Assembly (NCBI RefSeq): GCF_028435365.1
Contig: NZ_JAGTJJ010000106.1
Coordinates: 1-22,010, forward strand
Length of the DNA stretch: 22,010 nt
Source of the DNA: Polyangium jinanense
GTDB lineage: Bacteria > Myxococcota > Polyangia > Polyangiales > Polyangiaceae
Direction of reading: 5' to 3'
Below are positions 1-22,010 of the stretch, piece after piece. The position numbers were made by a program, and so were the translations under genes. Within the stretch, counting starts at the first letter, position 1. Each line of letters starts with the position of its first letter. Under the pieces are notes generated by a model that saw only the letters and a program-made list of their open reading frames with translations, did no database searches and had not been told where the DNA came from.

Positions 1-145
1 GCTCGTTCGATGAACTGCGCATCGCGCAGTTCATCGACCCCGGGTCCAGCGCTTGCGCTGGTCCGGGTCCAGGGGTGGACAACCCCTGGTGGGGCCTGGG
101 GCAAAGCCCCAGCGCAGCGCCTCCCAGATGAGACCAATGCTCAGG
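1..145 (+). repeat. Four-hairpin intergenic repeat, copy A (left end cut by the window)
   Basis: Four consecutive inverted repeats can be read directly. H1 (8-36) is a perfect 13-bp stem with loop ATC. H2 (about 41-68) has core arms CCAGCGC/GCGCTGG. H3 (about 70-90) has arms CCAGGGGT/ACCCCTGG. H4 (about 95-112) has arms CTGGGGC/GCCCCAG and loop AAA. A tail with GATGAGACC and ATGCTCAG is shared with the copy at 8491-8646. The other copies begin with a TGGTCTTG leader that would lie left of position 1, so this copy is truncated by the window. Overlapping open frames are low-complexity shadows. Confidence 0.9.
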
Positions 146-8242: not shown

Positions 8243-8260
8243 ATGTCACCGCCATGTCAC
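8243..8260 (-). promoter_or_regulatory. Pho-box-like direct repeat upstream of the kinase/regulator operon
   Basis: On the minus strand this reads GTGACATGGCGGTGACAT: two perfect GTGACAT copies spaced by 11 bp. It lies 22 bp before the kinase start codon. The half-site, spacing and strand match the element at 5669-5686. The tandem 11-bp geometry fits an OmpR/PhoB-family dimer, so this is the natural candidate for autoregulation by the operon's own regulator. Its closeness to the start codon would suit repression, or activation of a very short-leader transcript. Confidence 0.6.
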
Positions 8261-8282
8261 GGCATGCGCGGCGGATGCAAAG

Positions 8283-8421
8283 TGGGAGGCGCTGCGCTGG
8301 GGCTTTGCCCCAGGCCCCAGCAGGGGCTGTCCGCCCCTGCACCCGGACCAGCGCAAGCGCTGGACCCGGGGTCGATGAACTGCGCGATGCGCAGTTCATC
8401 GAACAGGCCAGGTCAAGACCA
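8283..8421 (-). repeat. Four-hairpin intergenic repeat, copy B
   Basis: This is an inverted copy of the element at 1-145, with the same four stems in the same order on the minus strand. H1 is at 8373-8401 (13-bp perfect stem, loop ATC on the minus strand). H2 has arms CCAGCGC/GCGCTGG. H3 has arms GCAGGGGC/GCCCCTGC; its outer pair differs from copy A with a compensating change. H4 has arms CTGGGGC/GCCCCAG. The leader TGGTCTTG...GGCCTGTTC on the minus strand (8401-8421) matches that of copy C. With copy C it forms a head-to-head pair that fills the 463-bp gap between the kinase gene and the next gene. Confidence 0.88.
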
Positions 8422-8490
8422 ACGACGATCCTGCCCATCAAGACCGTTCAACAGGCCACGTGCCCGTCGCCAGCGTGCAACGCACCTTCC

Positions 8491-8646
8491 TGGTCTTGCC
8501 ACGGGCCTGTTGGAAGAACTGCGCAACGCGCAGTTCTTCCACGAACGGTCCAGGGCTTGCCCTGGTTCGGGTCGAGGGGCGAACAGCCCCCGCGGGGCCC
8601 GGGGCAGCGCCCCGGCGCGACGCCTCGCGATGAGACCCATGCTCAG
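8491..8646 (+). repeat. Four-hairpin intergenic repeat, copy C
   Basis: The unit starts at TGGTCTTGCC (8491). H1 (8512-8540) has arms GGAAGAACTGCGC and its exact complement with loop AAC; four base pairs differ from copies A and B on both arms. H2 has arms CCAGGGC/GCCCTGG. H3 is a GAGGGGC/GCCCCC-type stem. H4 has arms CCGGGGC/GCCCCGG. The tail GATGAGACCCATGCTCAG is shared with copy A. Paired changes in the stems while loops and order are kept suggest selection on the folded form. It ends 39 bp before the stop codon of the minus-strand gene that follows. Confidence 0.85.
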
Positions 8647-8684
8647 CGCCAGGCCCTCGGGCGGGGGAAAGCGCGGCGGGGCGC

Positions 8685-13354: not shown

Positions 13355-13407
13355 CGGGCGGGTTGTACCGCAAGACGGGGGAGGGGGGTCGAGGGGATCG
13401 CGGCCAG

Positions 13408-13743
13408 GGCGGGGTCTTGTGCACCGAGGGCGGGGTCTTGTGCACCGAGGGCGGGGTCTTGTGCACCGAGGGCGGGGTCTTGTGCACCGAGGGCGGGGTC
13501 TTGTGCACCGAGGGCGGGGTCTTGTGCGCCGAGGGCGGGGTCTTGTGCGCCGAGGGCGGGGTCTTGTGCGCCGAGGGCGGGGTCTTGTGCGCGGAGGGCG
13601 GGGTCTTGTGCGCCGAGGGCGGGGTCTTGTGCGCGGAGGGCGGGGTCTTGTGCGCGGAGGGCGGGGTCTTGTGCGCGGAGGGCGGGGTGTTGTGCGCCGA
13701 GGGCGGGGTGTTGTGCGCCGAGGGCGGGGTCTTGTGCGCGGAG
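13408..13743 (+). repeat. 21-bp minisatellite, family 1 (16 units)
   Basis: There are sixteen head-to-tail 21-bp units with consensus GGCGGGGTCTTGTGC-ACC/GCC/GCG-GAG. The first five units carry ACC, later ones GCC or GCG, and two units carry G for C in GGGGTGTTG, so variants lie in blocks as expected from slippage or unequal exchange. Because 21 is divisible by 3, stop-free frames run through the array on both strands, so the open frames here are not evidence for a protein. There are no unique spacers, so this is not a CRISPR array. Confidence 0.95.
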
Positions 13744-13953
13744 GACACAGCCGCTAGCGCGGAGGACACAGCCGCTCGCGCGGAGGACACAGCCGCTCGC
13801 GCGGAGGACACAGCCGCTAGCGCGGAGGACACAGCCGCTAGCGCGGAGGACACAGCCGCTAGCGCGGAGGACACAGCCGCTAGCGCGGAGGACACAGCCG
13901 CTAGCGCGGAGGACACAGTCGCTCGCGCGGAGGACACAGTCACTCGCGCGGAG
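13744..13953 (+). repeat. 21-bp minisatellite, family 2 (10 units)
   Basis: There are ten units of 21 bp with consensus GACACAGCCGCTAGCGCGGA plus G; variants carry CTCGC for CTAGC, and the last two carry ACAGTC. The units join family 1 without a gap and share its GCGCGGAGG nonamer, while the other 12 bases are unrelated. The two families therefore look like one array in which half of the unit was replaced and then amplified. Together the two families span 546 bp between hsdM (minus) and a lipoprotein gene (plus). I see no gene in 13355-14026. Confidence 0.93.
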
Positions 13954-14026
13954 GGCAGCGACGTGGAGCTCCGGACCGATGACCCGAGCGGTTGACGGCC
14001 ATCCACATTCGCGTTTATCTGAACGA

Positions 14027-16882: not shown

Positions 16883-16923
16883 GCGCAGAACTCTCCGAGG
16901 GAGGAAGCGAGATCCCCGAAAGC

Positions 16924-16977
16924 TTCGCAGGCGCGCCCGGCAGGACTCGAACCTGCGACCCGCGGCTTGGAAGGCCG
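16924..16977 (-). repeat. Left attachment-site repeat (3' half of tRNA-Arg)
   Basis: These 54 bp match 21567-21620 with one mismatch. The match covers the tRNA-Arg 3' end flank, acceptor 3' strand, T arm, variable loop and anticodon arm, and stops at the 5' strand of the anticodon stem. The 5' half of the tRNA is absent. The single difference changes the anticodon triplet from TCT to TCC. This is the pattern left when a tyrosine recombinase integrates within a tRNA gene and the displaced 3' half remains at the far end. Confidence 0.85.
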
Positions 16978-18317: not shown

Positions 18318-18334
18318 CCCGTAGCTCAGCTGGA
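18318..18334 (+). other. tRNA 5'-half-like fragment
   Basis: Seventeen bases, CCCGTAGCTCAGCTGGA, are identical to the 5' part of the tRNA-Arg at 21575-21648 (acceptor end, D stem and D loop). The following bases do not complete a D stem or an anticodon arm, so this is not a working tRNA. It lies in a 453-bp stretch (18204-18656) that otherwise holds only a possible gene fragment. Confidence 0.4.
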
Positions 18335-18423
18335 CAAAGGGCCGGAGGAGCCCAGGTCAGGACTCCGTTCGGCAGGAGCGTAGGGGGAGGGGAGATGGTG
18401 CCAGGGAGGCCCCTTGGCCCACG

Positions 18424-20563: not shown

Positions 20564-21566
20564 TTGCCGCGCCCCCTCGCACGCTTGCCCCTCGTCAACA
20601 TCCAGGCCCGCGACGTGATCGCCTTCGTCGAGCGGCTCACGGTGACGAGTTTGTCCCCGATGGCCTGCCGGGGCAGGGGCCGCATTTCGAGGGAGACCGC
20701 CACGAAGGTGCTTTCGCTCGTCAAGCTCGCCCTGCGGGATGCCGTCGCCCAGGCGATGAGCCCGCAGAACCCAGCGGTGGACGTGAGGATCCGCAAGCAG
20801 GCCAAACCGAGGAGCCCTGGACCTACCTCCTACCCGAGGAGCAGCACGCCCTCTTCACCTGCGTGAAGATCCCGGAAGAGCACCGGCTCTGGATGCAAAT
20901 CCTTTGCGGTACCGGCCTCCGACTCGGTGAGTTCAACGCGCTGAAGCTTGCCGATGTGCACCTCGACGACGAGAATCCGCACGTCGTCATCCGTCGCTCG
21001 AACAAGGGCGCCACGAAGAGCGGCAAGATCCGGCGCGTGCCCCTCTTCTGGATGGCGCTCCCCGCGATGCGCCGGTGGCTCGACCTCCTCCCCGCGTGGT
21101 GCCCTCGGAACGCGCTCTCGCTGGCCTTCCCCGGTCCGCGTGGAGCTCGACGCGGGGTAGGGGTGCTCTTCCAGTTCTCGACCCACAAGGACGGGAAGGC
21201 CGTCAAGGTCAACCCCTGGGACAGCTACCTCGCTGCAGCGGGGATCATCCCCGAGCGTCGCCACGACGGCCGACGGCGGAGGCCCGCCCACGACTTCCGG
21301 CACACCTGCGCCGCCTCGCTCGCCTCGGGCTGGTACCCCCTCCAGGAGGACGGGGCCCCCGCGCCGGGCGGCCGTCGCTGGACGCTCGAGGAGATCAAGG
21401 AGCTCCACGGGCACTCCACGATCACCTTGACGCAGCGATACGCCCACCTCGGCGAGACCGCGCTCAAGGCGGCTGCGAAGGCGACGCACGCGAGTGTATG
21501 CAGCACCCCTCATGGATCAAACGTGGACCAACACCTCGGAGGGGGGAGGGCGAAATCCTCAACGAT
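20564..21566 (+). pseudogene. Tyrosine recombinase (integrase), 5'-truncated and frameshifted
   Basis: The first frame from TTG 20564 gives a core-binding-like helix segment, NIQARDVIAFVERLTVTSLS then RETATKVLSLVKLALRDAV, up to RIRKQAK. A missing base near 20807 moves the natural continuation into another frame: EEPWTYLLPEEQHALFTCVK and on to the full catalytic domain. That domain has Arg in GTGLRLGEF, Lys in RSNKGATKSGKIRRVPL, HDFRHTCAA (H-x-x-R), LHGHSTITLTQRYAHLG with the second His and the nucleophile Tyr. The N-terminal arm-binding domain is missing. The second frame has no stop before the tRNA and stays open to the window end. Its position next to the tRNA-Arg 3' end is typical of the integrase that built the island. 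It is probably inactive now. Confidence 0.85.
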
Positions 21567-21620
21567 TTCGCAGGCGCGCCCGGCAGGACTCGAACCTGCG
21601 ACCCGCGGCTTAGAAGGCCG
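21567..21620 (-). repeat. Right attachment-site repeat (within tRNA-Arg)
   Basis: This is the partner of 16924-16977, with 53 of 54 bases identical. It covers the 3' half of the intact tRNA-Arg plus 8 bp beyond its 3' end. The recombinase gene lies immediately to its left, and the tRNA 5' half lies on the right, outside the island. The interval 16978-21566 is therefore the inserted segment. Confidence 0.85.
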
Positions 21621-21648
21621 CCGCTCTATCCAGCTGAGCTACGGGCGC
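21575..21648 (-). tRNA. tRNA-Arg (anticodon TCT)
   Basis: The minus strand folds into a full cloverleaf. The acceptor stem is GCGCCCG/CGGGCGC (7 bp) with discriminator G. The D stem is GCTC/GAGC with loop AGCTGGATA. The anticodon stem is GCGGC/GCCGC with loop CTTCTAA, giving anticodon TCT. The variable loop is GGGTC. The T stem is GCAGG/CCTGC with loop TTCGAGT. No CCA is encoded. It reads rare AGA codons in a GC-rich genome and serves as the integration site of the island to its left. Confidence 0.97.
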
Positions 21649-21708: not shown

Positions 21709-21830
21709 CGGCGTAGCGCCGGGGTTTCACCCCGGACCCCGACCAGGGGTTGTCCACCCCTGGACCCGGACCAGCGCAAGCGCTGGACCCGGGGCGACAG
21801 CGCGCGATGCGCGCTGTCGACAGGGAAAAC
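21709..21830 (-). repeat. Four-hairpin intergenic repeat, copy D
   Basis: This minus-strand copy begins 60 bp outside the tRNA. H4 (21719-21735) has arms CCGGGGT/ACCCCGG. H3 has arms CCAGGGGT/ACCCCTGG. H2 has arms CCAGCGC/GCGCTGG. H1 (21795-21819) is an 11-bp perfect stem, CGACAGCGCGC, with loop ATC on the minus strand. The H1 and H4 stems differ from copies A and B but stay fully paired. Confidence 0.85.
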
Positions 21831-21880
21831 GTCGCCACCAGGTAGGGCAGTGCCGCTGTCTTGGTTGGCAACGCCGCTCG

Positions 21881-22010
21881 TGGTCTTGCCCCGGGCCCGT
21901 CCGAGAAACCGCGCATCGCGCGGTTTCTCGGCCTTCGGTCCAGGCCGTGCCTGGTCCGGGGTGCAGGGGGCGGACAGCCCCCTGCTGGGGTGCGGGGCAA
22001 CGCCCCGCTC
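21881..22010 (+). repeat. Four-hairpin intergenic repeat, copy E (right end cut by the window)
   Basis: It starts with the TGGTCTTGCC leader. H1 (21901-21931) is a perfect 14-bp stem, CCGAGAAACCGCGC, with loop ATC. H2 has arms CCAGGC/GCCTGG. H3 has arms GCAGGGGGC/GCCCCCTGC. H4 has arms GCGGGGC/GCCCCGC. It is head to head with copy D, as copies B and C are with each other. The tail would continue past the window. No gene is visible in 21649-22010. Confidence 0.87.

Follow-up and report, generated by a model that had tools for sequence, protein, structure and literature searches.

Tn5 and IS50 generate 9-bp target duplications and have ends that begin with CTGA, and REPIN/RAYT systems are not known to leave a target duplication when they insert. 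Bacterial MITEs, as described in PMC10969869, are short, non-coding, intergenic elements with inverted repeats, the ends of an autonomous element and target duplications. REPINs and BIMEs consist of inverted pairs of palindromic units around a short spacer and occur as many intergenic copies (PMC3116915). In Sinorhizobium meliloti, the IS4-family element ISRm22 inserts in REP palindromes in 10 of 10 cases, at the axis of palindromy (Tobes and Pareja 2006, PMC1525189). Among titles and abstract openings on myxobacterial, Sorangium and Polyangium repeats, REPs and MITEs, we found no published description of the repeat reported here, and the terms Myxococc-, Polyangi- and Sorangium do not occur in the main text of a REP survey (PMC12306157).

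The repeat lies in a 22,010-nucleotide stretch of Polyangium jinanense DNA, hereafter the window (contig NZ_JAGTJJ010000106.1, positions 1 to 22,010). It has all the MITE features listed above; unlike bacterial MITEs, it carries two arms of four ordered hairpins, most sampled copies are without ends, and inherited slots have genome-specific contents. With REPINs and BIMEs it shares the inverted pairing of palindromic units around a short spacer and the many intergenic copies, but its units are 115-bp four-hairpin arms, its partner is of Tn5 type and three genomes have no Y1 match. That partner, an insertion sequence, resembles Tn5/IS50 in its transposase domains, its 9-bp duplications and its CTGA-beginning ends, whereas the 18-bp ends are of another sequence and it lands mostly in the hairpins of its own MITE. 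ISRm22 is likewise an IS4-family element that lands in palindromic intergenic repeats; unlike the REP case, part of the Polyangium repeat family bears the insertion sequence's own ends, so that target and mobile element coincide. Two usually separate roles are thereby joined, that of a palindromic landing site and that of a MITE probably moved by the same insertion sequence. We read the repeat as a MITE that derives its ends from a Tn5-type insertion sequence and has turned into a REP-like resident of gene ends.

In Polyangium, a genus of soil bacteria, the family is a mobile DNA repeat, settled in many intergenic gaps, whose full element consists of two four-hairpin arms placed back to back, with a length of 336-392 bp between the ends. 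The first-pass annotation of the window had counted five copies, each with four hairpins in the same order; the hairpins and the stem order were borne out, but the five are arms of three elements (A, B and C) rather than separate copies. Element B (8283-8646, plus strand) is the sole complete copy in the window and has two inverted arms around a centre. Its left arm (8292-8406), placed by alignment, has H1 to H4 read on the minus strand, its 98-bp centre (8407-8504) holds the TGGTCTTG leaders, and its right arm (8505-8619, plus strand, by alignment) is followed by a right terminal inverted repeat at 8629-8646 on the minus strand (18/18 matches). Of element A the window contains the right half only (1-144), the left half preceding the window start. 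The plus-strand right arm of A comprises H1 at 8-36, with a 13-bp stem and a 3-nt loop, H2 at 39-67, H3 at 69-89 and H4 at 96-112; H1, H3 and H4 come from fold, alignment and pair counts, and H2 from fold and alignment, which show a conserved inner stem (46-51/56-61). The outer stem of H2 (39-44/about 62-68 in element A) pairs mainly in left-type arms and was omitted from the pairing model. A right terminal inverted repeat of element A lies at 127-144 on the minus strand and matches the consensus end at 18 of 18 positions by reading. Element C (21709-22010) is cut off by the window end: its left arm (21709-21819, minus strand) has an H1 with an 11-bp CGACAGCGCGC stem at 21795-21819, and its right arm (21896-22010, plus strand) is truncated.

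Folding supports this architecture, with -86.1 kcal/mol for positions 1-145 (z = -6.4 against 200 dinucleotide shuffles) and -259 kcal/mol for 8270-8660, which covers element B (z = -16.2 against 100 shuffles). The tail GATGAGACC..GCTCAG, thought at first to be conserved wherever visible, is the element's terminal repeat. Among the four arms with a visible outer end, two have it (127-144 and 8629-8646); beyond 8283 it is absent, with a best match of 9/18, as it is, by eye, beyond 21709. The leader TGGTCTTG, for which the same conservation had been proposed, was found in three of the four arms with a visible inner flank and belongs to the element centre. An Rfam scan of the whole window gave only a tRNA above threshold and nothing over the element; over 8250-8680, the best match reached 21.1 bits against a threshold of 100, and only below-threshold microRNA matches were returned.

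The repeat abounds in related genomes. The histidine kinase adjoining element B has 90-95% identity in four Polyangium species by protein scan, and element B itself has at least 83, 106, 86 and 82 matches in the genomes of four Polyangium relatives (G001-G004). The H1 core motif is present there in 241, 599, 499 and 347 copies, compared with 0-1 for the reversed control. With a covariance-model search, which had been put forward as a check on the family, six of the order's 183 genomes gave strong matches, namely the four Polyangium genomes, G018 and the one-contig genome G060. Weak matches appeared in G028, G152, G157 and G162, and the order-wide search used stricter filters that lose weak matches. 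Searching with the G162 sequence matched 33 of 183 genomes, many of these matches being short and G+C-rich, and we trust only those in the six genomes, G162 and G028. The distant repeats in G162 (L298) and G028 (L280 and L306) are 85% alike between the two genomes over 81 bp, and L298 has, by eye, four hairpins in the same order. Along contig 1 of G060 (13.24 Mb), the top-scoring matches listed all lie between about 2.3 and 9.5 Mb, and H1 motifs begin at 1.3 Mb. dnaA has its single match at 11.65 Mb, and good copies among the matches listed seem to avoid the origin part, an avoidance that the MITE explanation does not predict.

A minority of copies have 18-bp ends, CTGAGCATNGGTCTCATC, reading inwards. 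One-mismatch matches to this end number 16, 23, 36 and 64 in G001-G004, and the reversed pattern gave none. To characterize the copies, we sampled 146 elements; of 207 retained hits, these were the distinct full copies flanked by 80 bp or more. Both ends (at least 13/18 matches at each) were present in 20 of them, one end in 27 and no end in 99, so that 47 have at least one; copies with ends are over-represented in these counts because some were retrieved by searching for the end pattern, and decayed copies are too few throughout. Among the 20 both-end elements, identity between the 9-bp flanks was 0.59, compared with 0.32 for random pairing, and most other flank lengths were near the control (2 bp, 0.47 versus 0.33). 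A 9-bp target duplication, defined as 8 or 9 of 9 matching positions, was seen in 8 of the 20; the other 12 had no clear 9-bp duplication, and in one of these, L193, it looks like 10 bp by eye. In a check for empty sites, the positions of A and B were empty in all four Polyangium relatives, and that of C was empty in the sole testable relative. A pair of ends 3.5 kb apart was also seen in G001 (C45, L192), for which we claim no larger element.

The ends are shared with an autonomous element in related genomes. In G002, a 1503-bp insertion sequence with ends as in the MITE is flanked by the target duplication AACCAGGGC and contains an intact 475-amino-acid transposase frame. This protein has the domains PF14706 (Tnp_DNA_bind), PF02281 (Dimer_Tnp_Tn5) and PF01609 (DDE_Tnp_1), belongs to the IS4 family (NF033590, 240.6 bits) and matches Tn5 transposase in the PDB (1mus, 7.7e-31). 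G060 has four complete copies of the insertion sequence at 84% identity, and in G001, where the repeat abounds, no transposase match was found. The repeat is thus short, non-coding as judged by length alone, bounded by terminal inverted repeats and associated with duplications of 9 bp, the same length as for the insertion sequence. Shared ends, 9-bp duplications in some copies and empty sites support the initial proposal of a non-autonomous mobile element. The mover is probably a Tn5-like transposase. That it would be a hairpin-recognising transposase, as first suggested, was not supported, since the partner is a Tn5-type DDE enzyme. A related Tn5-type insertion sequence (45% identity) is present in G043 (L288), a 16-Mb genome, in several copies with equal scores; its ends, CTGCGCATTGGTCTCATC, and a 9-bp duplication, AGCAAGATG, were read from one copy.

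The importance of the hairpins to the insertion sequence is that it prefers to land in them, mainly in H2. Among the matches listed there were 22 insertion-sequence ends, some of which pair up as one copy and one of which had a flank too short to test. Of the 21 testable ends, 18 lie inside element sequence and 3 outside, and by reading of the flanks 16 of the 18 are at H2 and 2 at H3. Of the four copies in G060, two are in H2 with the duplication GGCACGGCC, one is between element arms and one is outside. When ends of both kinds were considered, 18 of 79 distinct ends lay in another copy (15 from the insertion sequence and 3 from MITEs or others); for loci fetched by pattern alone, the count was 5 of 32.

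Most sampled copies are found at gene ends, most often between converging genes. Convergent genes flank 72 of 115 assigned elements, compared with 8 of 40 control gaps (odds ratio 6.7, p = 3e-6), and a first background count gave 16 convergent among 58 gene pairs; orientation was called by a simple GC-by-codon-position method, 31 of the 146 elements were unassigned and the background is small. The convergent share was 55/77 for copies with no end, 12/24 with one and 5/14 with both (none versus both, p = 0.014). On 111 of the 170 sides where the stop codon could be determined, it lies no more than 20 bp from the edge of the core; in another 29 frames the flank contained no stop. In the orthologous slots L160 and L080, the core is present in both species and the right end is kept in one and gone in the other. 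A classical intrinsic terminator was rejected because the hairpins lack following T runs: across 292 arm ends, the 25 nt beyond H4 contained no run of six or more and one run of five, and the longest run was at most two in 269 of them. A terminator scan of element B gave one site, in the centre, with 0.3 expected. An inverted repeat that bears runs of A and of T and resembles an ordinary two-way terminator adjoins the element in the slot near position 28475 of the syntenic stretch in G001 (C32) and in its partner in G003 (C242).

Comparison between species revealed 17 cross-species pairs, involving 31 elements, that share both flanks. These flanks are 86-96% alike, and in six of the pairs the element is inverted. 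Mean core identity was 0.796 between orthologous copies, 0.777 between non-orthologous copies across genomes and 0.803 within a genome. The nearest neighbour of the 31 elements was a same-genome copy in 29 cases, a non-orthologue from another genome in 2 and the orthologue in none, and the orthologue had a median similarity rank of 75 out of 145. Along three syntenic stretches of G001 and G003, both flanks were located for seven slots, of which six are shared and one is empty; three of the six had served to choose the stretches, and without them three of four are shared, one of these being a single-arm copy. The stretches contain 29 element records, of which 14 have a missing flank and 2 are at an edge. 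Sites appear to be inherited while their sequences are exchanged. Replacement seems to affect full copies but not single arms, the latter point coming from one case, a copy with the look of plain vertical descent, whose orthologues are about 95% alike by eye and which has a one-sided H1 change. Stem correction is therefore not universal. Shared slots with genome-specific and sometimes inverted contents provide comparable sites at which the concerted evolution of dispersed bacterial repeats can be measured.

When hairpin stems change in pairs, this is usually taken to prove that selection acts on RNA. The hairpins and the in-register changes on both arms of their stems are present as originally described, according to fold, alignment and pair counts. 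For the counts we aligned 55 arms, the 5 in the window and 50 of 292 from relatives, picked to be less than 93% alike; window arm 4 was trimmed short, so that the outer part of its H1 is missing there. In this alignment 96.3% of 1877 cells pair, and 16 of 35 pairs have double changes. Double-change cells numbered 149, compared with 46.6 +/- 4.5 in 500 shuffles and 8-22 when partners were slid, one-side changes occurred in two cells, and further pair types were not in excess (25 versus 24.6 in shuffles). The proportion of paired cells was 99.6% for H1, 96.9% for H2, 86.2% for H3 and 100% for H4, the value for H3 being low because its outer pairs fail in about half of the arms (unformed in 28 and 27 of the 55, the right-type ones). 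Over 290 arms, leaving aside 2 of 292 with no recognisable H1, the H1 cells comprised 3756 Watson-Crick pairs, 6 G-T, 3 A-C and 5 others. In 34 comparisons at shared slots, H1 had seven paired and no one-sided changes, and the loops differed in 15.

These counts weaken the first-pass reading of the paired changes as a sign of selection on structure. H1 has almost no wobble or one-sided intermediates and the contents are genome-specific, so gene conversion, re-insertion or template switching explain the changes equally well or better. The near-pure Watson-Crick pairing of H1 points more to copying and correction of DNA than to selection acting on RNA. Exchange among DNA copies, with correction, accounts best for the paired changes; selection on RNA structure behind them is possible. 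Since wobble is almost absent alongside its paired changes and shared sites differ in content from genome to genome, the family is a natural test case for asking to what extent compensatory evolution can be mimicked by copying mechanisms alone. Template switching has been reported to create and mend stems (PMC8794818).

We considered what else could account for these observations. If the repeat were a structured 3'-end RNA, a terminator or RNase barrier for mRNAs of genes entering from both sides, its stem changes would be compensatory under RNA selection. Such a role would fit the stop codons mostly within 20 bp of the core edge, the enrichment of convergent gene pairs, the strength of the paired changes and the more frequent convergence around end-less than around both-end copies. 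The scarcity of wobble in H1, the absence of T runs beyond H4, the central position of the sole terminator-like site in element B, the uniformly below-threshold Rfam matches and the shared slot with its own terminator all argue against it, and we regard it as rather unlikely. By contrast, we give roughly even odds to the idea that DNA copying produces the paired changes as a by-product, by template switching between arms or gene conversion of whole hairpins, with no selection on the fold. It accounts for the lack of one-sided H1 changes at shared slots where loops differ and for the genome-specific contents, and it draws on the reported ability of template switching to create and mend stems. 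However, it leaves unexplained why cores persist while terminal repeats vanish and why gene ends are preferred, and the single-arm copy with a one-sided H1 change does not fit it.

The shared slots could instead reflect parallel insertions, each lineage having been colonised separately at the same few suitable gaps, and the inversion of 6 of 17 pairs and contents no closer than those of random copies would then be expected. Sharing of six of seven slots (or three of four) is nevertheless high for chance among many hundreds of gaps, a number that we assumed, and we think parallel insertion improbable. A genuine REPIN or BIME, mobilised through recognition of single-stranded DNA hairpins by a REP-associated tyrosine (Y1) transposase, would match the inverted hairpin pairs between genes, the hundreds of arms per genome and the Y1 domain (PF01797) matches in G003, G004 and G018. 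That domain was not found in the repeat-rich genomes G001, G002 and G060, and the ends are shared with a DDE insertion sequence. Together with the 9-bp duplications in 8 of 20 both-end elements, the three genomes without a Y1 match disfavour REPIN/RAYT mobilisation, which we consider very improbable. Our preferred explanation, to which we assign a probability of roughly 0.77, is a Polyangium MITE with the ends of a Tn5-like insertion sequence, moved in trans, whose slots are mostly inherited and whose full-length contents are exchanged.

Under this MITE explanation, a Tn5-like transposase would move the repeat in trans by cutting at the 18-bp ends, as the shared ends and duplications suggest. 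A copy that lands in a short gap between gene ends, most often convergent ones, would persist; its ends would then be lost, by small deletions in at least one visible case, while the hairpin core stays. In inherited slots, full-length contents may be swapped within the genome by gene conversion, sometimes in inverted orientation. Alternatively, a new element may land in an old H2, followed by recombination between arms. Such exchange, perhaps together with template-switch repair, would keep the stems perfect. It is possible that the core is beneficial at gene ends, through RNA end protection or insulation of converging transcription. That nested insertion leads to overwriting, and that the position at gene ends reflects a function, are our inferences. 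A more speculative version, which we hold to be possible but somewhat doubtful, is a self-overwriting system in which new copies are targeted to H2 and recombination between arms replaces the old content in either orientation without terminal repeats, giving long-inherited slots and concerted evolution, the core being kept as useful at gene ends. If true, dispersed repeats would evolve in concert, driven by targeted insertion, with the full-length copies of one genome staying similar and their hairpins free of mismatches in slots between convergent genes.

The window has further repeated sequences. A tandem array of about 25 copies of a 21-bp unit (GGGCGGGGTCTTGTGC.., changing into GCGGAGGACACAGCCGCT..) occupies 13400-13960, and matching arrays are found in relatives (L001 and L003, weaker in L004). 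Around and within a tRNA-Arg gene at 21573-21648, a 71-bp sequence recurs at 89% (16907-16977; 21550-21648), and a tRNA-like piece lies at 18318-18345. Beside the tRNA-Arg gene, the frame at 20600-21510 reads by eye as a phage-type integrase. The repeat pair, the tRNA-Arg gene and the putative integrase possibly form a genomic island.
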